This document shows positions 329-9,816 of a DNA stretch of 45,441 nucleotides, piece after piece. Every line of letters starts with the position of its first letter. The first letter of the stretch is position 1. The notes under the pieces are model-generated. The model was not told the origin of the DNA. It worked only from the letters and a program-made list of their open reading frames with translations, and did no database searches. Source of the stretch: Elusimicrobiota bacterium (GTDB lineage Bacteria; Elusimicrobiota; Endomicrobiia; Endomicrobiales; Endomicrobiaceae); the NCBI GenBank assembly GCA_031274365.1, contig JAISQF010000012.1, forward strand, positions 1 to 45,441, given 5' to 3'. A program made the translations under genes and the position numbers.

Positions 329-603
329 TTAATCATGATAGATTTCATCGCGTTTGCCGACAGCGACAACAACAACAATTAAAACATTATCTTTGATTTC
401 TACAATAACTCTAAAATTATCAACTCTGTATCGCCAGTATCCGCCAAACTTATATTTAAGCTGTTTTCCCGAGCTTCTTGGATCAAGTAATATAGAATCT
501 TTTTCAAGAAACTTAAAAATTTTAGCTTTTACCGAATTGTCAATTTTTTCAAATCTCTTTGCGCAGGAATGCTCCACGCAATTTTATATTTATTCAATTC
601 CAT
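329..603 (-). pseudogene. RelE/ParE-family toxin, frameshifted near its N-terminus
   Basis: The intact protein would be about 91 residues of the RelE/ParE mRNA-interferase fold. An ATG at 603 lies inside the end of the antitoxin gene, and its frame reads MELNKYKIAW then PAQRDLKK, a typical RelE N-terminus, but stops at 529-531. The rest (KIDNSVKAKIFKFLEK, GGYWRYRVDNFRVI, VGKRDEIYHD) continues in another frame to a TAA at 329-331. The two halves meet at a run of six A on the coding strand (544-549 on +); a seventh A, or a -1 slip on the run, gives a seamless toxin. The alternative GTG start at 577 would give a protein lacking the first beta strand, so I reject it. It is either a recently inactivated toxin, one made by slippage, or a sequencing error. 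The neighbouring antitoxin is intact. Confidence 0.75.
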
Positions 604-850
604 ACATTTTTTTTATTTCTTCATGAGTATAAGTTTTTCCATTCCCATGCTCTATTTCTTCAACAGCCCGCATAGTCAAAAGCGTGTCCTCTAAATCTTC
701 CATTCTTTCCATTACTGCTTTTAATTGCATCTTTATTTTTTTTAACTCGACGGAAACATCCGCCGTTTTGGAAGCGTTTAGCGCTTGAACAGGACGATGT
801 TTTTGAAAGCCGACGGCAATATCGGTGATTTTTATATTGTTAGTTTTCAT
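590..850 (-). CDS. Antitoxin of the RelE-type pair (RelB/Phd-like)
   Basis: A protein of 86 residues directly upstream of the toxin; its last codons overlap the toxin ATG at 603, the usual arrangement of type II toxin-antitoxin pairs. It has a good ribosome site (GGGAGG seven bases before ATG). Residues about 32-60 are charged and heptad-like (VELKKIKMQLKAVMERMEDL), probably a helix, followed by an acidic C-terminal tail ending THEEIKKMYGIE, as expected for a toxin-wrapping segment. The N-terminus does not give a clear DNA-binding fold by eye, so the family (RelB, Phd/YefM or other) is uncertain. The role follows mainly from position. Confidence 0.65.
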   Translation of the reverse strand: MKTNNIKITDIAVGFQKHRPVQALNASKTADVSVELKKIKMQLKAVMERMEDLEDTLLTMRAVEEIEHGNGKTYTHEEIKKMYGIE

Positions 851-1038: not shown

Positions 1039-2391
1039 CTATAAATTAAACTCCTTTTTTGCACAGCCGAGAACTTCGTCCATATATGTTAAAACTTTAG
1101 AAAAATCTTCATAGCTTGTCGTCGCCGCGGGCTCTAAACGAATTACCGAGGCATTATTAAGCGTTCCCGCCATCATAACTTTTCTTGCAAAAAGATTTTT
1201 TGCCACAAAATATCCTATTTCAGTTTTTGGAAATTCCACGCCTACCATAAGACCGACGCCGCGAACATCTATTAAAAGTTTCGGATACTTCTTTTGAAGT
1301 TTTTTTAATCCTTTCATTAAAAATTCGCCTTTCTCGCGGGCAAGTTTTGGGACATTATGATTTATCATAAAGTTTATCGCGCCAAGCGCCGCCGAACATG
1401 ACAAAGGATTTCCGCCAAATGTGGGAGATCCCAACATCCAAGGATTGTCCTGCAGCTCTTTTATCCATAAATGTTTTCTCGCAATTATTCCCGTGATAGG
1501 CATAATTCCTCCGCCAAAAGCCTTGCCGTAAGTCATAATGTCTGGAGTTACATTTTCGGCTTGACATCTAAAATAGCTGCCGGTGCGCCCCATTCCGCAT
1601 TGAATTTCGTCAAAAATCAGCAAAATATCATTTTCATCGCAAAGATTTCTTATGCCTTTTAAATAACCTTTTGGCGGAACAATAATGCCGGCTTCTCCTT
1701 GAATAGGCTCTAAAATTATTGCCGCAATTTTTTCGCCCGCTTTTTTAAGTTTCCAGACGGAGCTTTTCATATCTTCAATATCTCCATAAATCGCATGAGA
1801 AACTTGTCCGATTAAAGGAAAATAAGGAGAGCGGTAAAGATCTTTTCCGCTGACGGAAATCGCCCCCATACTTTTTCCATGAAAACCGTTTATCGTCGAA
1901 AGTATCCAAGTTTTTTTACTCGCTATTCTTGCAAGTTTAAGAGCCATTTCGACGGCTTCGGCTCCGCCGTTTGTAAAAAAACAAAACTCTAAATCTCCCG
2001 GCGTTATGGCCGCCATAGCTTGAGCGAGATAACCGCGCAGCGGGTCGAGCAATTCTTGGCTGTGCAGAGCTTGATGATCCAATTGCTTTTTTACGTATTT
2101 AAGAATTTCGGGATTGCGGTGGCCAAATGTAAAAATTCCAAAACCGCCTAAAAAATCTATAAATTTTTCGCCGTCTAAATCCACAAAATAAGAATCATAA
2201 TCAGTCCATTCTATAGACGCGGCGTTTGAAGAAACCGACTTGCGATATTTTAACCAGCCCGGATTTATATGATTGTTAAAATTTGCGACGGTATCTTTTT
2301 CTATTTGTTTTTTTTGCGCGGGCGTGAAACTTTCAGACATTATAAAATCTAAAGATTTGCCTAACACTTCCTTTGCTTTTTTTATATCCAT
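1039..2391 (-). CDS. patA: Putrescine aminotransferase (class III PLP aminotransferase)
   Basis: Transfers the amino group of putrescine to 2-oxoglutarate, giving 4-aminobutanal (cyclising to pyrroline) and glutamate in the cytoplasm. The 450 residues match the length of E. coli PatA/YgjG and share its characteristic stretches: HINPGWLKYRKSV near 41-53, FLGGFGIFTFGHRNP near 80-94, LHSQELLDPLR near 109-119, the pyridine-nitrogen aspartate in DEIQCGMGRTG (Asp261) and the PLP lysine in TYGKAFGGG (Lys290), then GTLNNA near the C-terminus. The nearest alternative is an ornithine or other omega-aminotransferase of the same class, but the PatA-type N-terminus and the polyamine-transport neighbours favour putrescine. 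It is the last gene of the polyamine island, 252 bp after potD copy 1 and probably separately transcribed. Confidence 0.85.
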   Translation of the reverse strand: MDIKKAKEVLGKSLDFIMSESFTPAQKKQIEKDTVANFNNHINPGWLKYRKSVSSNAASIEWTDYDSYFVDLDGEKFIDFLGGFGIFTFGHRNPEILKYVKKQLDHQALHSQELLDPLRGYLAQAMAAITPGDLEFCFFTNGGAEAVEMALKLARIASKKTWILSTINGFHGKSMGAISVSGKDLYRSPYFPLIGQVSHAIYGDIEDMKSSVWKLKKAGEKIAAIILEPIQGEAGIIVPPKGYLKGIRNLCDENDILLIFDEIQCGMGRTGSYFRCQAENVTPDIMTYGKAFGGGIMPITGIIARKHLWIKELQDNPWMLGSPTFGGNPLSCSAALGAINFMINHNVPKLAREKGEFLMKGLKKLQKKYPKLLIDVRGVGLMVGVEFPKTEIGYFVAKNLFARKVMMAGTLNNASVIRLEPAATTSYEDFSKVLTYMDEVLGCAKKEFNL

Positions 2392-2456
2392 GATTTATCC
2401 TTTTATTTTAATTTATTATTTTATTTCTAATTAAACATTTAACCGATTGATTAAAA

Positions 2457-2477
2457 ACGTAAATTTTCATTTTACGT
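2457..2477 (-). terminator. Possible weak terminator after potD copy 1
   Basis: Seven-bp AT-rich stem (acgtaaa/tttacgt) with a 7-base loop, followed on the minus strand by TTTTTAA. Low GC makes it a weak candidate. It lies between the potD stop and patA. Confidence 0.35.
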
Positions 2478-2510
2478 AAGAACTTTCGTTTTTAAGAATG
2501 CATTCCCGGA

Positions 2511-2548
2511 TTGCTTTGCTGTCAATTTGTAACAGCCAAGCAAAGCAA
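2511..2548. repeat. Inverted repeat in the potD-patA gap
   Basis: Perfect 10-bp arms (ttgctttgct at 2511-2520, agcaaagcaa at 2539-2548) with an 18-base loop and no T-tract on either side. It may be an operator or an mRNA processing hairpin; function unknown. A smaller hairpin (ccgca/tgcgg, 2577-2589) follows. Confidence 0.5.
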
Positions 2549-2643
2549 ACCAGAAAAGTCATTTAACCGCCTATGACCGCAATTTGCGGCGCGAGGACGA
2601 AAAAATTTTGAAAAACTTTTCCCGCCCCCGCAAACGGCATTTT

Positions 2644-3693
2644 TTATTTTGTGAACTTTGTCCAAATCAAATCATATCTCTCAACTTTAGAGCCTATGTC
2701 TTTTATGAACTCTCCTTTTTCAAACACTTCAGACGGCACATTTGACGCGGGATTGTTCTTATAAGAATCAGGCAATAAAGCGACAGCGGCTTTATTGGGA
2801 TTTGTATAAGGATATTCTTCGGAAATCTTTTTGCTTATTTCGGGCCTTAAAATAAAACTTATAAATTTCTTGGCGTTTTCAAGGTTCTTTGCTCCTTTTA
2901 ACACAGCTAAATTATCTATAAATAAATAGCATCCTTCCTGCGGAAAAACAATTTCAATTTCTTCAGGTTTTTCTTGTATTGAAATTGCAATTTCTGCATT
3001 CCACATATAACCTATGATTGTTTCTCCGTTTAACATAGCGGTTTTTGGAGAATCGCTGTCGCGCAGTTTAATATTGGGTTTTAACGCTTGAACAGCCGCG
3101 TCAATCTTATCAAGCTGAGCGTCGTTTGTAGTGTTGAAAGAATAACCCAGAGATTTAGCGACCGCTCCTATCACCGCGCGGTAATCGTCGAGAACTTCTA
3201 CAGAATTTTCATATTTAGGATTAAAGAGCTGAGAAAAAGAAGTTATTTTTTCACTGACTTTTGATTTATTGACGGCAAGAGCGGCCACGCCGGCCATATA
3301 AGGAACTGAAAATTTATTGCCCGGATCAAAAGTGCGGTTAGTATAAGCCGGATCAATATTTTTGAAATTCTCTAACGACTTTGCGTCAATTGCTTCAAGC
3401 AGATTTTCCTCTATCATCATCTTAACCATATAATCGCTTGGAACAACTATGTCATAAATCCCGCTGTTACTGCCTTTAACTTTTGCAAGCAAATCTTCAT
3501 TTGACGAATAAGTCGCCATATTGACTTTTATCCCCGTCTCTTTTTCAAATTCTTTAATTACGGAATCGGGAATATATTCCGTCCAAATAAACAAATTTAC
3601 TTCGCCGTTTTTCCCCGACTTTGAACAAGCCGTAAAAGAAAAAACGGAAACTATAGCGGCTAAAATCAAACAAGACAAAAATACTTTTTTCAT
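2644..3693 (-). CDS. potD: Spermidine/putrescine-binding lipoprotein, copy 1
   Basis: Periplasmic solute-binding protein that hands polyamine to the PotABC importer. 349 residues: signal peptide about 1-22 with a lipobox ending FTAC (lipidated Cys23), then a PotD/PotF-type domain with FIWTEYIPDSVIKEFEKETGIKV near 34-56, IYDIVVPSDYMV near 79-90 and SVPYMAG near 124-130. The start ATG has AAAGGAG seven bases upstream. It is clearly homologous along its whole length to copy 2 (5114-6181), and their upstream regions are also nearly identical, so the unit was duplicated as gene plus control region. The copies differ in binding-cleft segments, for instance MWNAEIAISIQEKP here against IWSGEIALCLMEKP, which may reflect different polyamine preference. 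Confidence 0.9.
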   Translation of the reverse strand: MKKVFLSCLILAAIVSVFSFTACSKSGKNGEVNLFIWTEYIPDSVIKEFEKETGIKVNMATYSSNEDLLAKVKGSNSGIYDIVVPSDYMVKMMIEENLLEAIDAKSLENFKNIDPAYTNRTFDPGNKFSVPYMAGVAALAVNKSKVSEKITSFSQLFNPKYENSVEVLDDYRAVIGAVAKSLGYSFNTTNDAQLDKIDAAVQALKPNIKLRDSDSPKTAMLNGETIIGYMWNAEIAISIQEKPEEIEIVFPQEGCYLFIDNLAVLKGAKNLENAKKFISFILRPEISKKISEEYPYTNPNKAAVALLPDSYKNNPASNVPSEVFEKGEFIKDIGSKVERYDLIWTKFTK

Positions 3694-3780
3694 TTCTTTC
3701 TCCTTTTTAATTACGTATTTTATTTTAAGTTTTTATAAAAACTTTTTGCTCAAAATAAAAACGTTTTATTTAGTTTATAA
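3694..3780 (-). promoter_or_regulatory. Duplicated potD upstream region (probable promoter)
   Basis: The roughly 70 bases before potD copy 1 are nearly identical to those before copy 2 (6182-6250), including aaggagaaag, taattacgta and caaaataaaaacg. The stretch lies between a terminator and the start codon, so it should hold each copy's own promoter. It is very AT-rich and I cannot choose a single -35/-10 pair with confidence. Confidence 0.5.
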
Positions 3781-3786
3781 TAAAAA

Positions 3787-3816
3787 ACGCCTATTAAAGA
3801 TTTCTTTAATAAGCGT
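3787..3816 (-). terminator. Rho-independent terminator of the phosphotriesterase-family gene
   Basis: Thirteen-bp stem (3787-3799 with 3804-3816, one G-U pair in minus-strand RNA) with a 4-base loop, followed on the minus strand by TTTTT. It ends transcription coming from 3890-4999 before potD copy 1. Confidence 0.8.
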
Positions 3817-3889
3817 CTTTGCTTAGAACTGCAAAAATACCGCAACATACAAATTACTTTTTAACAATATAGCAAAATATAGGATATCT

Positions 3890-4999
3890 TCAAACCCTTA
3901 TCGCGCAAAGAAGACGCGCGGGATTGTTTATCGTAACATTATCTATATCCTCTTTTTTTGCGCCGCTCCTTTTTAACATCGGGACAACATAATCCAAAAC
4001 TCTCAAATAACCGTTTCCGCCGTAATGTCTATAATAAATCTTGACGTATAAATCGCAGCCTAAAACAATTTGTTTTGAATATCCCAGCTCAAATAATTTT
4101 AATAATGCGTATATTCTATCATAATCCGTCGGATTTAAAATGCCTGCCGCCTCATAACCGCATGTTTCTCCAAAAAAATCAAAAACAATATTTACGCCGG
4201 TATCCAGTATTTTTCTTACCGGATCCAAATTCAACTTGGCCGATGCGTCATGGTATTTAATTATTTTAAGCGCGTCATATTCTTTTATAAAACTATCCAT
4301 ATGACAAGCGATAATGCGCTCGGGAGACGCGCCTTCGTTAAGAATCATATCAATCATTTTAGACGTATCGTTTGTGTCAAGAAAATTATCTCCAGTCCAG
4401 CCGCCCGTATGAATCTGCATCGATAAACCCGTTTCTTTTGCGGCTACGGCGCCCGCTTTTAACGCTATTATCTCATTATCGTTTAAGCTGTTGCACGCTA
4501 TTTTTACATGACCCGCTTTAATATCCGTGCCGTCTATGCCCACATTTATTTCATCTTCAATATATTTAACCAAGTGCGCTATGTCCATATCCGCGCAACT
4601 TTTAGGCCAAAACTTGTCGGCATACAGCCCCGCCGAAGCTATGACATTAACGCCGGCCGCTTTTGATATTTTTTGAATTTCTCTTATATCGCCGCGTATG
4701 CCCGAAGGACTTACTTCCAAAATCGTAGATCCCCCCGCCGCCTTAAAATATCCGACTTCTTTTATCGCTAAATCTGTGTCGCTTAGACGCATACATTCCG
4801 GCGATAAATAAAAATATCCTTTCCTTAAATAATACATATTCTCGCCGGTTATCGTTAAATATTTTTCGTCTATGGGAGGAAAAGCGTTTTTATAAATTTC
4901 CACATAAGGTCTAAGATCAACGAGAATATGCTCATGCATATCCGTAAAATTTAAGTCCTTTGAATCAATTTCTCCTAAAACTGTTTTTACTTTACCCAT
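3890..4999 (-). CDS. Phosphotriesterase-family metal-dependent hydrolase, substrate unknown
   Basis: A TIM-barrel amidohydrolase of the phosphotriesterase-related (PTER/PHP) branch. I place the start at 4999, where GGAG precedes the ATG and the protein opens MGKVKTVLGEI as the family does; a start at 5068 would only add an unlikely leader. From that start (369 residues) all expected binuclear metal ligands are visible: His22 and His24 in DMHEH, the carboxylated lysine candidate Lys166 in GHVKIA, His197 in QIHTGG, His233 in ACHMD and Asp316 in LGCDL. The gene sits between two potD copies and upstream of patA, with a terminator after it. Some family members act on N-acylated amines, so deacylation of an acetylated polyamine is an attractive but unproven guess; lactonase or phosphoesterase activity is equally possible. 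Confidence 0.8.
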   Translation of the reverse strand: MGKVKTVLGEIDSKDLNFTDMHEHILVDLRPYVEIYKNAFPPIDEKYLTITGENMYYLRKGYFYLSPECMRLSDTDLAIKEVGYFKAAGGSTILEVSPSGIRGDIREIQKISKAAGVNVIASAGLYADKFWPKSCADMDIAHLVKYIEDEINVGIDGTDIKAGHVKIACNSLNDNEIIALKAGAVAAKETGLSMQIHTGGWTGDNFLDTNDTSKMIDMILNEGASPERIIACHMDSFIKEYDALKIIKYHDASAKLNLDPVRKILDTGVNIVFDFFGETCGYEAAGILNPTDYDRIYALLKLFELGYSKQIVLGCDLYVKIYYRHYGGNGYLRVLDYVVPMLKRSGAKKEDIDNVTINNPARLLCAIRV

Positions 5000-5113
5000 T
5001 TTCTCTCCATTATTATATGCTGACAAAATTACTATTTCGCCCGCCGCAACGACAAAACAAACAAACATATTATTTTGTTTTGCCGCCGCGGCATTAAGAC
5101 ATTAAATATTTTT

Positions 5114-6181
5114 TTATTTCGTAAACTTAGTCCAAATCAAATCATATTTTTCAAGATCGTTTGGCTTTAAGTTCTTTATAAATTCGCCTTTTTTCAAAAC
5201 CTCGGGCGGAATATTTGCGGCTGGATTTTTCTTAAAAGAATCCGGCAGTAAAGCGACGGCCGCTTTATTGGGATTCGGATAAGGATGTTCCGCGGAAATC
5301 ATCGCGCTAATATCGGGCCTTAAAATGAAGTTGATAAATTTCTTTGCATTCTCGACATTTTTAGCGTTCTTTAATATCACAAGATTATCCACGAAAAGAT
5401 AAATTCCTTCTTTTGGATAAATCACTTCAAATTCGTCCGGTTTTTCCATTAAGCAAAGAGCTATTTCTCCGCTCCAAATATAACCGATGGACGTTTCGCC
5501 GCCTATCATCGGAGTTTTGGGAGAAGAGCTGTCGCGCAACTTCAAATTGGGTTTTAATTGCTCCATATATTTTTCAACTATCGCAAGTTCTTTATCATTT
5601 GTAACATTAAAAGAATAACCCAAAGATTTTGCCATTGCTCCTATAACGGCGCGAAAATCGTCAAGAACCACTATCGAGCTTTTATATTTAGGATTTAACA
5701 AATCGGCAAAACTTGTAATCTTATCCTTTACTTGATTTTTATTGACTATTATCATAGCTCCGCCCGCCATATAAGGAACGGAAAATTTATTTCCTCTGTC
5801 AAAAGAAAGATTCAAATAATTCTCGTCGAGATTTTTGAAATTCTCCAAAGATTTTGTGTCGTATTCCAAAAGCATATCCTCGCCTTTCATCAGCTCGACC
5901 ATATAATCGCTTGGAACCGCAATATCATAAATGTTTTCCTTGCTGCTTTTTATTTTAGCAAGCATATCTTCATTAGATATATAATTTGCGGCGTTAACTT
6001 TTATACCCGTTTCTTTTTCAAACTGATTGATAACGCTTTCCGGAAGATAGTCTTCCCAAACAAAAACATTTACTTCTCCCTGGCTGTTTGAAGATTTACA
6101 TCCCGATAAAAAAACAGAACCAAATCCGGCGGCAATTAAAGTCATTGCAAAAATCAGACGACAAAACGTTTTTTTCTTCAT
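5114..6181 (-). CDS. potD: Spermidine/putrescine-binding lipoprotein, copy 2
   Basis: Second periplasmic polyamine-binding protein, 355 residues. Signal peptide about 1-27 with lipobox LSGC (Cys28), then the PotD fold: VNVFVWEDYLPESVINQFEKE near 37-57, IYDIAVPSDYMVELMKG near 84-100, SVPYMAGGAM near 129-138, and a C-terminal YDLIWTKFTK shared with copy 1. It follows potC, from which it is separated by a terminator (6285-6312), so it probably uses its own promoter; binding proteins are often made in excess over the membrane complex. It is encoded immediately after the permeases and is the more likely ancestral partner of PotABC. The sequence cannot say which polyamine each copy prefers. Confidence 0.9.
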   Translation of the reverse strand: MKKKTFCRLIFAMTLIAAGFGSVFLSGCKSSNSQGEVNVFVWEDYLPESVINQFEKETGIKVNAANYISNEDMLAKIKSSKENIYDIAVPSDYMVELMKGEDMLLEYDTKSLENFKNLDENYLNLSFDRGNKFSVPYMAGGAMIIVNKNQVKDKITSFADLLNPKYKSSIVVLDDFRAVIGAMAKSLGYSFNVTNDKELAIVEKYMEQLKPNLKLRDSSSPKTPMIGGETSIGYIWSGEIALCLMEKPDEFEVIYPKEGIYLFVDNLVILKNAKNVENAKKFINFILRPDISAMISAEHPYPNPNKAAVALLPDSFKKNPAANIPPEVLKKGEFIKNLKPNDLEKYDLIWTKFTK

Positions 6182-6284
6182 TTCTTTCTCCTTTTTAATT
6201 ACGTATTTTATTTTAAGTTTTTATAAAAATTTTTCGCTCAAAATAAAAACGTTTTTAATACCGCTTTAATACTACAATAAAAAA

Positions 6285-6312
6285 CGCTTATTAAAAATTC
6301 ATTTAATAAGCG
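6285..6312 (-). terminator. Rho-independent terminator after potC
   Basis: Eleven-bp stem (6285-6295/6302-6312) with a 6-base loop and TTTTTTA on the minus strand. It is nearly the same hairpin as at 3787-3816, showing that the terminator was copied together with the potD promoter and gene. Confidence 0.8.
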
Positions 6313-6390
6313 CCTTTGCTTAAAACTATAAAAACATATTAAGTTGTTAAATTAATCCTTTTAAGAATGCGGCGAAATTTTACCCAATTT

Positions 6391-7197
6391 TTATTTACCC
6401 GATTTTTTAGCATTTTTATAAGCGCTGAGCTGGCTTATTATCACAACTATCAAAGTAATTAACATTATTATGGACGACAAAGCATAGACGTCCGGACGAA
6501 TCCCCGAGCGAACAGACTCCATTATTTTTAACGGGAAAGTTATACTCGACGCTCCCGTCGTAAAAAAGCTGATAATGAAATCGTCTATCGATAAAGTAAA
6601 AGCTAAAATTGCGCCTGAAATTATACCGGGAGCGATAATGGGTATCGTTATGCCGGTAAGCACTTGAATGCGGTTTGCTCCCAAATCCATAGCCGCTTCC
6701 TCTATAGATCTATCATAACCTGAAAGTCTTGCGCGAACCGTAAAAACAACAAAAGGTATGCTAAACGTCGCATGAGCTATTATCAAACTTATTCTGCCCA
6801 AAGGAACATTTGCTATGGCAAAAGACGCCAAAAGAGAAATACCCAAAACTATTTCCGGAATTACCACCGGAATATAAAGCAAAGCGTCTATCGCGCCTTT
6901 TACCTTAAATCTATATCTAAACATCGCCACGGCCGTGAGAGTTCCTATCACGACGGCTATAGCGGTGCTTGCCGACGCGACTATTAACGTATTTACAAAC
7001 GATTGAAGGAGCGACGAATTTTGTATCATTTCTCCATACCAGCTAAAAGTAAAACCTTCGAAAATAATATTGCGGCGGGAAGTGTTAAATGAAAACAAAA
7101 TCACTATGGCTATCGGCGCGTATAAAAAGATATAGACGAAAGTTGAAAACAAACGCGAAAAAGAATTTTGTAAAGAAACAGTTTTTTTAGTTTGCAT
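6391..7197 (-). CDS. potC: Polyamine ABC transporter permease PotC
   Basis: Inner-membrane permease that pairs with PotB in the polyamine importer. 268 residues with about six hydrophobic segments: the first at 14-38 (FVYIFLYAPIAIVILFSF), then near 65-90, 105-125, 135-155, 185-210 and 240-260. The cytoplasmic ABC-coupling (EAA) loop is visible near 175-195: EEAAMDLGANRIQVLTGITIP. The N-terminal SFNTSRR and SWYGEM motifs are typical of PotC. The ATG lies one base after the potB stop, so the two are translationally coupled. Length matches the family. Confidence 0.9.
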   Translation of the reverse strand: MQTKKTVSLQNSFSRLFSTFVYIFLYAPIAIVILFSFNTSRRNIIFEGFTFSWYGEMIQNSSLLQSFVNTLIVASASTAIAVVIGTLTAVAMFRYRFKVKGAIDALLYIPVVIPEIVLGISLLASFAIANVPLGRISLIIAHATFSIPFVVFTVRARLSGYDRSIEEAAMDLGANRIQVLTGITIPIIAPGIISGAILAFTLSIDDFIISFFTTGASSITFPLKIMESVRSGIRPDVYALSSIIMLITLIVVIISQLSAYKNAKKSGK

Positions 7198-7198
7198 T

Positions 7199-8071
7199 TT
7201 ATACCGTCCCCAGCTCGTCGAGTTTTCCGCCCGACCTTGTATAGAGTTTTACGCAAATTAGAGTTATGACTATCAGCATTATAGACAGCGCCGCGCCAAA
7301 AGGCCAATTATACGCTTCCTTAAATTGTCTTGATATCACATTTCCTATAATTTGATTATTGCCTCCGCCCATTAAATCCGAGACGAAAAAATATCCCAAA
7401 GCCGGAATAAAAACCATTATTGATCCCGCAAAAATTCCGGGCACGGTGAGCGGCAAAGTTATATTTCTAAACGTTTGCCAAAAACCCGCCCCCAAATCTT
7501 TTGAGGCTTCAATCAAACTATTGTCCAATTTATCTATAACGGTATATACCGGCAAAACCATAAATGGAAGCAAAGTATAAACCATACCCAGAATGACCGC
7601 CCCTCTTGTAAACATCATTTCAATCGGCGCGTCTATCAAACCGATATAAATGAGAAAATCGTTGATATAACCGTTTTTGCCAAGCAGAACTCTCCAGCTG
7701 TAAAGTCTTATCAACGAATTTGTCCAAAACGGCAGCATTAGAAAAATCATCATCAAAGTTTTCTTAAACGGCGAAGTGGAAGCCATTATATAGCCGAAAG
7801 GATAGGCTATTAAAATACACACTACCGTGGTTAAAACCGCAACGATAAGAGAGTTTGTGTATATGCCTAAAATCGTCGGGTCAAAAAGTCTTGCATAATT
7901 TCTCAAAGTAAAATGAAAAACTATATTGTGCGATTCATTTGTCGTGCAAAAACTAATTATCAAAATATAAACCAGCGGCGCGGCTATCAATAAAACAAGC
8001 CATGCCGTTACGGGAGAAATCATCGCAAAAAGAGGAACGGTTTTTTTCCTAAAAGCCGGACTGTTAAACAT
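7199..8071 (-). CDS. potB: Polyamine ABC transporter permease PotB
   Basis: Membrane partner of PotC. I choose the ATG at 8071 (290 residues), because AAGGAGG stands six bases before it; the open frame extends to 8128, but those extra 19 residues are basic and read through the end of potA. The protein opens MFNSPAFRKKTVPLFAM, has about six membrane spans starting with SPVTAWLVLLIAAPLVYILI, carries the EAA loop (EASKDLGAGFWQTFRNITLPLTVPG) and the late FVSDLMGGGNNQIIGN stretch typical of PotB. The start overlaps the potA stop by 8 bases, so potA-potB-potC form one coupled unit. Confidence 0.9.
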   Translation of the reverse strand: MFNSPAFRKKTVPLFAMISPVTAWLVLLIAAPLVYILIISFCTTNESHNIVFHFTLRNYARLFDPTILGIYTNSLIVAVLTTVVCILIAYPFGYIMASTSPFKKTLMMIFLMLPFWTNSLIRLYSWRVLLGKNGYINDFLIYIGLIDAPIEMMFTRGAVILGMVYTLLPFMVLPVYTVIDKLDNSLIEASKDLGAGFWQTFRNITLPLTVPGIFAGSIMVFIPALGYFFVSDLMGGGNNQIIGNVISRQFKEAYNWPFGAALSIMLIVITLICVKLYTRSGGKLDELGTV

Positions 8072-9266
8072 TCCCCGCCTCCTTAGTTTTAATCTCGCCG
8101 GCAAAAGCCGCAAAGTCCGCATTTTCAATTTGTTTGATAATATCGTTTGACGGCGTGTAAATCATAACGGAATCTTTTATATCCCAATAAATGTATTGAA
8201 TACTTCCAAGCGCGGGGACGGGCAAATCCACAGGAGTGTTTATTCTGACCGCCTGTCCGTTTGTGAGCATAATTATCGTCTTAATAATATTTCCAAGATA
8301 AATGTTTTCTCTAACTACACCACCTAAAGAAAATCCTTCCACCGCTTGAGAACTGCAGCGTATTTTTTCAGGACGAACGCTTACATAAACTATTTCGTTT
8401 GGATCAAACCCTTCACTTTTGCCGAGCAGATCGCCGGCTTCACAATACAAATACGCCGTTCCGCCGCGCTCTTCTTCGGCAACAGCCTCAAACAAATTTG
8501 TCTCGCCGATAAAATCAGCGATAAATTTTGTCGCGGGACGAGCGTAAATTTCTTCGGGCGTTCCCAACTGATCGACATTTCCCGCATTCATCACGGCTAT
8601 GCGGTCGCTCATTGTGAGAGCTTCCTCTTGATCGTGAGTAACATAAATAAAGGTAATGCCCAATTTTCTTTGCAGACTTTTAAGCTCTATTTGCATTTGC
8701 TTTCTTAACTTCATATCCAAAGCGCCCAAAGGCTCGTCTAAAAGTAAAACGCGGGGATTATTGATAATCGCTCGAGCTATGGCCACTCTCTGTTTTTGTC
8801 CGCCCGAAAGCTGCGACGGATACCTTTGTTCAAAACCTTCAAGACGCACCATTACGAGAGCTTTATCGACTCTGCTTTTTATTTCATTTTTTGGAACTTT
8901 TTTCATCCTTAATCCGTATGCGATATTATCGTAAATATTCATATGCGGAAATAAAGCGTAGCTTTGAAAAACGGTATTTATATTACGCTCAAACGGCTCT
9001 TTATTTTCAACATTTTCTCCCTCTATAGTGATAGTTCCGCTCGTTTGATGTTCAAAGCCCGCAATCATTCGCAATAGAGTGGTTTTTCCGCAGCCCGAAG
9101 GACCGAGTATTGAGAGAAATTCTTTTTCATAAATCGTCATATTCAAATTCTTGACCACGTGATTAGAATCGTAAAATTTATCAACTCCTATAATTTCAAC
9201 GATAGGGTTCGGCTTTTCCTCCGCAATGGAGGGAGGTTCCTTTATAGATTCCGTCTCTTTTTCCAT
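8064..9266 (-). CDS. potA: Polyamine ABC transporter ATPase PotA
   Basis: Cytoplasmic ATPase that powers polyamine import. Start set at 9266 (MEKETESIKEPP), about nine bases after a GGGGG site; an in-frame ATG at 9296 would fall inside the preceding hairpin region. 400 residues: Walker A GPSGCGKTT near 55-63, Q-loop Gln101, signature LSGGQ 153-157, Walker B LLLDEP 174-179, H-loop His211, then a C-terminal TOBE-type regulatory domain (VRPEKI near 303, then GNIIKTII). The proline- and glutamate-rich first 20 residues are an extra extension. It is the first gene of potABC and lies behind a terminator/competing-helix region (9293-9363) and the PII gene. Confidence 0.9.
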   Translation of the reverse strand: MEKETESIKEPPSIAEEKPNPIVEIIGVDKFYDSNHVVKNLNMTIYEKEFLSILGPSGCGKTTLLRMIAGFEHQTSGTITIEGENVENKEPFERNINTVFQSYALFPHMNIYDNIAYGLRMKKVPKNEIKSRVDKALVMVRLEGFEQRYPSQLSGGQKQRVAIARAIINNPRVLLLDEPLGALDMKLRKQMQIELKSLQRKLGITFIYVTHDQEEALTMSDRIAVMNAGNVDQLGTPEEIYARPATKFIADFIGETNLFEAVAEEERGGTAYLYCEAGDLLGKSEGFDPNEIVYVSVRPEKIRCSSQAVEGFSLGGVVRENIYLGNIIKTIIMLTNGQAVRINTPVDLPVPALGSIQYIYWDIKDSVMIYTPSNDIIKQIENADFAAFAGEIKTKEAGNV

Positions 9267-9292
9267 ATTATTTTTCCCCCTGATAAAAAAAA

Positions 9293-9363
9293 ACAACGAC
9301 AGTCTTAAGCGACCTCGTTGTCAACTTTATCATTTCTATTTAATTTATATTTCTAAGACTGCC
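9293..9363 (-). promoter_or_regulatory. Terminator with competing upstream helix between the PII gene and potA (possible attenuator)
   Basis: On the minus strand a 7-bp stem (acaacga/tcgttgt, + 9315-9321 and 9293-9299, 15-base loop) is followed directly by nine T, a good intrinsic terminator. The loop and first bases of its 3' arm (+ 9298-9307) are also complementary over 10 bp, with one G-U pair, to a segment just after the PII stop (+ 9354-9363). The two helices share bases and cannot both form fully, which is the layout of a terminator/antiterminator switch upstream of potA. It could equally be a plain terminator for the PII gene with a chance upstream match. Confidence 0.55.
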
Positions 9364-9382
9364 GTAAATTTTTTCATTCATA

Positions 9383-9745
9383 TTAAAGCGCTTTTTTCCC
9401 GCGCTCTCCGGTCCTTATGCGCATAGCATCGTCAACCGGCGAAACAAAAACTTTCCCGTCGCCCACTTTCCCCGACGAAATTTTTTCATGAATAATATTC
9501 AAAATTTCATTCACAACGGAATCTTCAACAATCGTCGAGGCTTGAATTTTTGGAAGTAAATTCATACCCGCAACTTTAACTCCTTTAATTTTGAAACCTT
9601 TCGGACCTCCCGACGTCAATCCGCCTTTTTGTTTTCCGCAGCCCATTACGCTTGTTACCGTAATTCCGCCGACGCTACGGCTGTTTAGAATATTCTTTAG
9701 CGCTTCAAGTTTGTCGGGGCGGATAATAATCTCCAATCTTTTCAT
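9383..9745 (-). CDS. PII-family nitrogen/energy sensor with an unusual long T-loop
   Basis: Small trimeric signal protein that binds ATP/ADP and often 2-oxoglutarate and docks on transporters or enzymes. 120 residues: N-terminal MKRLEIIIRPDKL, B-loop GKVGDGKVFV near 92-101, C-loop RIRTGERG near 109-116, and MGCGKQKGG near 34-42. The T-loop after QKG is about eight residues longer than in E. coli GlnB and has no tyrosine at the uridylylation position; it reads through GPKGFKIKGVKV to LLPKIQ. No ammonium channel gene is nearby; instead potA follows. From memory, PII proteins of the PotN type lie beside pot genes in some Firmicutes, so this may be a related polyamine-transport regulator. Calling it glnB would hide these differences. 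Confidence 0.85.
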   Translation of the reverse strand: MKRLEIIIRPDKLEALKNILNSRSVGGITVTSVMGCGKQKGGLTSGGPKGFKIKGVKVAGMNLLPKIQASTIVEDSVVNEILNIIHEKISSGKVGDGKVFVSPVDDAMRIRTGERGKKAL

Positions 9746-9786
9746 CTTATTGCCCTCCTTTTTTGAGATTTCATTAATGCGCGCTC

Positions 9787-9816
9787 CTTATATCATAATC
9801 GCATTTATTAAGTCAA
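9787..9816 (-). promoter_or_regulatory. Sigma-70-type promoter for the PII/polyamine genes
   Basis: Minus-strand TTGACT (+ 9811-9816), 18 bases, then TATAAG (+ 9787-9792) preceded by TGA, i.e. an extended -10. The predicted start near 9780 lies about 35 bases before the PII ATG, which has AAGGAGG in front. Confidence 0.6.

Follow-up and report, generated by a model that had tools for sequence, protein, structure and literature searches.

A PotN-subfamily PII protein encoded beside a polyamine importer in the Elusimicrobiota

PII proteins are familiar mainly as nitrogen sensors acting on ammonium channels and glutamine synthetase. Why, then, does a PII gene stand at the head of a set of polyamine genes in a bacterium of the phylum Elusimicrobiota? 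The DNA in question is a stretch of 45,441 nucleotides (contig JAISQF010000012.1 of assembly GCA_031274365.1, family Endomicrobiaceae), referred to here as the window; it is contig C1, in its entirety, of a 59%-complete draft assembly (genome G000) of 1.04 Mb in 22 contigs. A polyamine island at one end of this contig reads PII–potA–potB–potC–potD1–PTE–potD2–patA, on the minus strand throughout (1039–9745), where PTE stands for a gene encoding a phosphotriesterase-family metal hydrolase. A preliminary description of the window had tied the PII to polyamine uptake and had suggested that it extends the PotN-like group of PII proteins outside the Firmicutes. The first proposal is borne out by recurrent linkage to pot genes and by the clade that the linked proteins form, and the second by a tree of PII proteins, the best structural match and seven Endomicrobiaceae genomes.

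The PII protein and its relatives

The best match of the window PII in the PDB was 7O4X (110 bits; the next match scored 82), which is PotN of Lentilactobacillus hilgardii (PMC9692440). We placed 121 PII proteins in a tree: the pot-linked ones, 41 distinct sequences that include PotN (7O4X), all fell into one clade (SH-like approximate likelihood-ratio test (SH-aLRT) 97.1, ultrafast bootstrap (UFBoot) 100), and none of the AmtB-linked or unlinked PII proteins of that tree was placed inside it. We ruled out that this clade is an artefact of a common T-loop, as it was retained without the T-loop columns and column 62 (87.9/100). Judged from its sequence, the window protein is a member of the PotN subfamily outside the Firmicutes, falling with PotN (97.1/100) and not with GlnB or GlnK.

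Residues were compared between the 41 pot-linked and 54 AmtB-linked proteins, in columns numbered after E. coli GlnB. The nucleotide-site residues Gln39, Lys58, Arg101 and Arg103 are present in every pot-linked protein (41/41) and Lys90 in 39 of the 41, so nucleotide binding is expected of this clade. The T-loop differs: a tyrosine anywhere in the loop was found in none of the 41 pot-linked proteins but in 53 of the 54 AmtB-linked ones, Arg47 in 3/41 as against 52/54, and an acidic residue at column 62 in 2/41 as against 54/54. Tyr51 is the site of modification in this family, and in GlnK it is Arg47 that inserts into the pore of AmtB; loss of both would fit an exchange of partner. Could the window PII nevertheless be an ordinary GlnK that chances to precede a pot operon? 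Its fold and nucleotide-site residues match those of ordinary PII proteins, but the phylogeny, the T-loop signature and a linkage that recurs in many genera contradict this explanation, which we regard as highly improbable. The window protein has neither Arg47 nor Tyr51 in its T-loop and lacks linkage to amtB; a second PII gene of the same genome lies directly after amtB, which also speaks against this explanation. A whole PII clade appears to have traded its usual partner for a polyamine importer. Its sequences are clearly recognisable by the missing T-loop tyrosine and the loss of Arg47, and it offers a defined set of orthologues for studying target change in PII proteins.

How far does this linkage extend? 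A profile-seeded scan, blind to gene neighbours, covered 84,980 genomes, and all locus counts refer to its 80 best PII loci. Genes of a pot transporter lie beside PII in 47 of these, and many of the 33 loci without them adjoin amtB. At least one of aldehyde dehydrogenase, patA, aguA and aguB was found in 23 of the 47 pot-linked loci compared with 0 of the 33 others (GabT, which cross-reacts with PatA, was left out of the counts). Carriers of pot-linked PII include lactobacilli, Enterococcus, Clostridium, Desulfosporosinus, Lachnospiraceae and termite-gut Clostridia, with further ones, each from single or few metagenome-assembled genomes (MAGs) and named by MAG label only, in Coriobacteriales, Atopobium, Treponema and Fibrobacter. 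Three loci from MAGs labelled Fibrobacter, Treponema and Lachnospiraceae (L059, L061 and L065) have the PotN-type PII gene flanked by two different potA genes, and their binding proteins are of a type with W-E-G-Y or W-E-M-Y in the pocket.

Among 341 Elusimicrobiota genomes, a PotN-type PII was found in seven, all Endomicrobiaceae and spread over six genera, and a gap in score (158 bits against 93 and lower) separates it from the other PII proteins of the phylum. The PotN clade therefore reaches at least one phylum beyond that for which it was named. All seven genomes keep the order PII–potA–potB–potC–potD, so that, with the 47 of 80 loci above, the PII–pot arrangement is not unique to this contig. 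A second species of the window genus (G001) repeats the run PII–potABC–potD1–PTE together with the upstream TerC, GNAT, nitroreductase, YchF and Obg genes, and PII–potABCD occurs in five genera beyond that of the window genome; the arrangement is thus no assembly accident. PII domains are also found in open frames of 560–600 amino acids (G002:C17, G014:C3, G015:C200 and G011:C1), which are probably ammonium transporter–PII fusions in the same family.

The window genome belongs to an Endomicrobiaceae lineage from termite guts, and Endomicrobia are known to gain functions from other termite-gut bacteria (PMC11257099). In the PII tree, the Elusimicrobiota proteins form one group that adjoins Clostridia and Coriobacteriales which, from their isolate codes, seem to belong to one and the same termite-gut assembly set, and in a separate PotA tree the same Elusimicrobiota adjoin four of those termite-gut Clostridia. 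The agreement of the two trees supports a transfer within the termite gut in which PII and potA moved together. The Elusimicrobiota probably acquired both genes together from termite-gut Clostridia, a direction suggested by their nesting among Firmicutes.

Uptake, catabolism and control by PII

The preliminary description had the content and order of the eight island genes right: all are full open frames with plausible starts, and each family is backed by Pfam (Table 1). For the PTE gene, the start at 4999 was favoured over the mechanical open reading frame start at 5068. The Pot-type importer set is complete, comprising an ATPase, two permeases and a binding protein. E. coli Pot proteins were the top models for PotB, PotC and both PotD proteins, with scores under the strict equivalog cut-offs, which are tuned to E. 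coli.

Table 1 Genes and terminator-like hairpins of the polyamine island, in gene order
Feature	Position in window	Strand	Supporting evidence
PotN-subfamily PII, 120 aa, enlarged T-loop without Tyr51 and Arg47	9383..9745	-	Pfam P-II 81 bits (cut-off 25); best PDB match PotN 7o4x
Terminator-like hairpin and U-run, PII/potA gap	9284..9321	-	z = -4.1 for intergenic stretch
potA, polyamine ABC transporter ATPase with C-terminal regulatory domain	8064..9266	-	TIGR01187 384 bits (cut-off 356); PRK09452 435 bits
potB, permease	7199..8071	-	PRK09497 312 bits (cut-off 348)
potC, permease	6391..7197	-	PRK09500 268 bits (cut-off 326)
Terminator-like hairpin, potC/potD1 gap	6279..6312	-	
potD1, polyamine-binding lipoprotein, pocket W-E-D-Y replacing W-T-E-Y	5114..6181	-	best model an E. 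coli Pot protein
Phosphotriesterase (PTE)-family metal hydrolase	3890..4999	-	Pfam PTE 135 bits (cut-off 22.4)
Terminator-like hairpin, PTE/potD2 gap; second copy of the pre-potD1 hairpin	3781..3816	-	
potD2, polyamine-binding lipoprotein, ordinary PotD of the island (W-T-E-Y)	2644..3693	-	best model an E. coli Pot protein
patA, putrescine aminotransferase, class III	1039..2391	-	PRK11522 622 bits (cut-off 612); TIGR03372 474 bits (cut-off 659)

The PII–potABCD block is followed by patA in the window genome and in G005, and by aldehyde dehydrogenase–patA–aguA–aguB in G002 and G014, the latter adding a γ-aminobutyrate (GABA)-type aminotransferase. G003 has, after potABC, the run potD–PTE–potD–aldehyde dehydrogenase–tRNA-editing-domain protein–Fe-alcohol dehydrogenase–GABA-type aminotransferase–aguB–alanine dehydrogenase–patA. 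The AguA, AguB and alanine dehydrogenase proteins of these islands exceed curated cut-offs (equivalog cut-offs for AguA and AguB). Outside the island, the window genome encodes the aldehyde dehydrogenase on C4 (68% identity) and the GABA-type aminotransferase gabT on C18 (69%). The route from putrescine through 4-aminobutanal and GABA to succinate semialdehyde is an established pathway, and because the island genes match it, putrescine, or agmatine via AguA and AguB, is the likely substrate. The earlier suggestion that polyamines serve as a nitrogen or carbon source gains support from this context, with patA, aldehyde dehydrogenase, GABA-type aminotransferase and agmatine deiminase/N-carbamoylputrescine amidase behind the PII–pot block in relatives, and putrescine or agmatine is predicted to be an energy or nitrogen source for Endomicrobia. 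An alanine dehydrogenase lies inside the G003 catabolic island, and AlaX-like tRNA-editing-domain proteins are encoded in G003 and G014 (L185 7763-8878; L038 16750-17214; L036 5744-6217); alanine may be the amino-group carrier in the catabolic island.

We consider it probable that the island serves the uptake and catabolism of putrescine, and probably of agmatine too, under a PotN-subfamily PII, where PotA binding, the direction of control and the substrate are what we infer from genes and their context. PotD2, together with PotD1 where it is present, would capture the diamine for import by PotABC, and PatA would transaminate putrescine to 4-aminobutanal. Aldehyde dehydrogenase and GABA-type aminotransferase, encoded elsewhere in the window genome and within the island in relatives, would then lead via GABA to succinate semialdehyde. 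The PII trimer would sense the ATP/ADP state through its conserved nucleotide sites, and its remodelled T-loop would dock on PotA, most likely on the C-terminal regulatory domain, throttling import at low energy. PotA would in this way be gated by energy state. PotN was earlier purified alongside a C-terminal construct of PotA, both from L. hilgardii (PMC9692440).

It is possible, but unlikely, that PII proteins of the PotN clade regulate another target, such as a catabolic enzyme, glutamine synthetase or a transcription factor, and that the place before potA reflects co-expression only. PII proteins generally have enzyme and regulator targets, and in G002 glnA and a small regulator gene lie divergently upstream of PII. 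A terminator-like hairpin also parts PII from potA in four of the seven genomes, those similar to the window hairpin being in G001, G002 and G014, with none seen in G003, G005 and G006. However, potA is the most constant neighbour of PII, mostly directly downstream, even where the order of permeases and patA is altered (L059, L061 and L065); many pot-linked loci have no catabolic gene; and the altered T-loop is consistent with a new docking partner. Control of PotA by PII thus remains the reading that we favour, although several observations weigh against it or against the catabolic role. The PII/potA hairpin means that co-transcription of the two genes is not certain. Catabolic genes lie in reach at just 23 of the 47 pot-linked loci, so that PII may serve uptake alone in many bacteria. 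The aldehyde dehydrogenase scores under every equivalog cut-off, PatA is over the cut-off of PRK11522 but under that of TIGR03372 (Table 1), and the window genome is a draft with just over half of its content (59%) present.

Given the terminator-like hairpins in the PII/potA, potC/potD1 and PTE/potD2 gaps, the island is not a single simple transcript; with its U-run, the first of them would allow a surplus of PII relative to the transporter. The two potD leaders (3694-3830 and 6182-6327, minus strand), each with a terminator-like hairpin and ribosome-binding region, are 86% identical over about 140 bases. No third full copy of this leader was found in the window genome, the PotD proteins themselves are well diverged, and an Rfam search of the window returned no known riboswitch or RNA. 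The potC–potD gap of G002 is packed with tandemly repeated inverted-repeat units (L035 7029-7651). Directly after patA, a ParE-family toxin gene and its small upstream partner (342-850, minus strand) mark the end of the island in the window genome, and the end of the contig consists of about 28 identical bases in a row (1-30; G on the minus strand), probably an artefact of assembly or sequencing.

PotD1 and the phosphotriesterase-family hydrolase

The PTE gene is present in 3 of the 341 Elusimicrobiota genomes (G000, G001 and G003), which are three of the seven island carriers. It lies directly after a potD1-type potD each time (3/3), and no other close copy was found among the 341 genomes. 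The island copies, from two genera, share 58-72% protein identity. PotD proteins from islands without PTE resemble PotD2 more closely than PotD1, which gives potD1–PTE the look of an added module. With the amine pocket defined as in PMC8666671 and PMC11414716, PotD1 has Glu35 and Asp36 where PotD2 has Thr35 and Glu36. Both proteins are acidic at both pocket ends (in PotD1, D36 and E232 at one and D168 and D257 at the other), and PotD1 has the added E35. Its pocket, as read from these residues, suits a free diamine or guanidine over a ligand acylated at one end.

We found no near source of the PTE gene in the other genomes and plasmids sampled. Samples of 394 Clostridia and 294 Treponema genomes held nothing above 37% identity, and relatives in 14 genomes with pot-linked PII reached 34% at best. 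No close relatives were found on plasmids (31-33% identity), where both rhizobial cases inspected are sugar-transporter clusters with no polyamine link. PTE (G000, G001 and G003) and aguA/aguB (G002 and G014) seemed mutually exclusive, as if PTE replaced the agmatine route; this idea was rejected, as all three occur together in G003 and aguAB stands without PTE in G005.

What might the hydrolase do? It scores above the Pfam PTE cut-off (Table 1) and has the metal ligands HxH, Lys/Glu, H, H and D, with Lys at the metal bridge. A lysine in this position is a trait of phosphotriesterases and lactonases. The enzyme could accordingly be a lactonase or esterase unrelated to polyamines and carried along by chance, and distant rhizobial relatives do lie in sugar ABC transporter/ribokinase clusters. 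We regard this as possible but rather doubtful: the position directly after potD1 is kept in two genera at 58-72% identity with no other close copy in the phylum set, which argues for a functional link that has been kept.

The preliminary description had proposed instead that the hydrolase deacylates acetylated polyamines, and an amidase freeing putrescine from acetylated or otherwise acylated polyamines would account for a gene that, within the Elusimicrobiota, is confined to pot islands and always follows potD1. The family includes mammalian PTER, an N-acetyl amidase that acts on N-acetyltaurine (PMC11374699) and N-acetyl-beta-alanine (PMC13311154). In overall sequence the window enzyme is closest to that branch, namely 3rhg (Pmi1525), 3k2g and 9efa, with 3rhg/4qsf (Pmi1525) as best PDB match, but it has a bridging Lys where these three have Glu, lacks the PTER substrate arginines and has an extra segment past the third metal histidine. 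The PTER residues R204, R233, H300 (substrate contacts) and bridging Glu169 (PMC11374699, PMC13311154) are G, S, Y and Lys here. Moreover, PTER does not cleave N-acetyl-GABA (PMC13311154), and the acidic residues at both ends of the PotD1 pocket, with E35, disfavour a one-end-acylated ligand. With PTE in only three of the seven islands as well, deacylation found no positive support and we judge it unlikely. An AlphaFold model of the enzyme, made from three sequences, had a mean predicted local distance difference test (pLDDT) score of 58 and was not used for fold search.

PotD1 and the PTE-family enzyme would then form an accessory entry module to the putrescine pathway. In a speculative proposal, to which we attach low confidence, flagellate or plant material in the gut of the termite may supply a polyamine conjugate of the acyl, carbamoyl or lactam type, which the pair would capture and hydrolyse, feeding putrescine into the PII-controlled, energy-gated pathway. 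If true, the module would bring a new enzyme activity to the phosphotriesterase family and extend the range of PII control.

Comparison with known systems

The importer belongs to the same transporter family as E. coli PotABCD, and PotD2 shares the pocket residues W34-T35-E36-Y37, D168 and D257. Here, however, E171 is replaced by Ala and W255 by Phe, the latter as in PotF, a putrescine-preferring binder, and there are two PotD proteins. Like GlnK–AmtB, the island encodes a PII beside the membrane transporter that it is expected to control, but this transporter is a polyamine ATP-binding cassette (ABC) importer, the AmtB-plugging Arg47 and Tyr51 are gone, and the PII clade is a separate one. 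With the PotN system of L. hilgardii and other lactobacilli it has in common the PII clade, a PII gene directly before potA, the lack of a T-loop tyrosine, the nucleotide-site residues and nearby catabolic genes (patA, aguA and aguB in lactobacilli). It differs in its host, an Elusimicrobiota bacterium; in a T-loop that is 6-8 residues longer than that of GlnB in most of the seven Endomicrobiaceae proteins; in the place of potD, which follows potC and does not precede PII; and in the added hydrolase and second potD. The system is real, conserved and functionally coherent, and it is a PotN-subfamily member in a new phylum, not a new kind of system.

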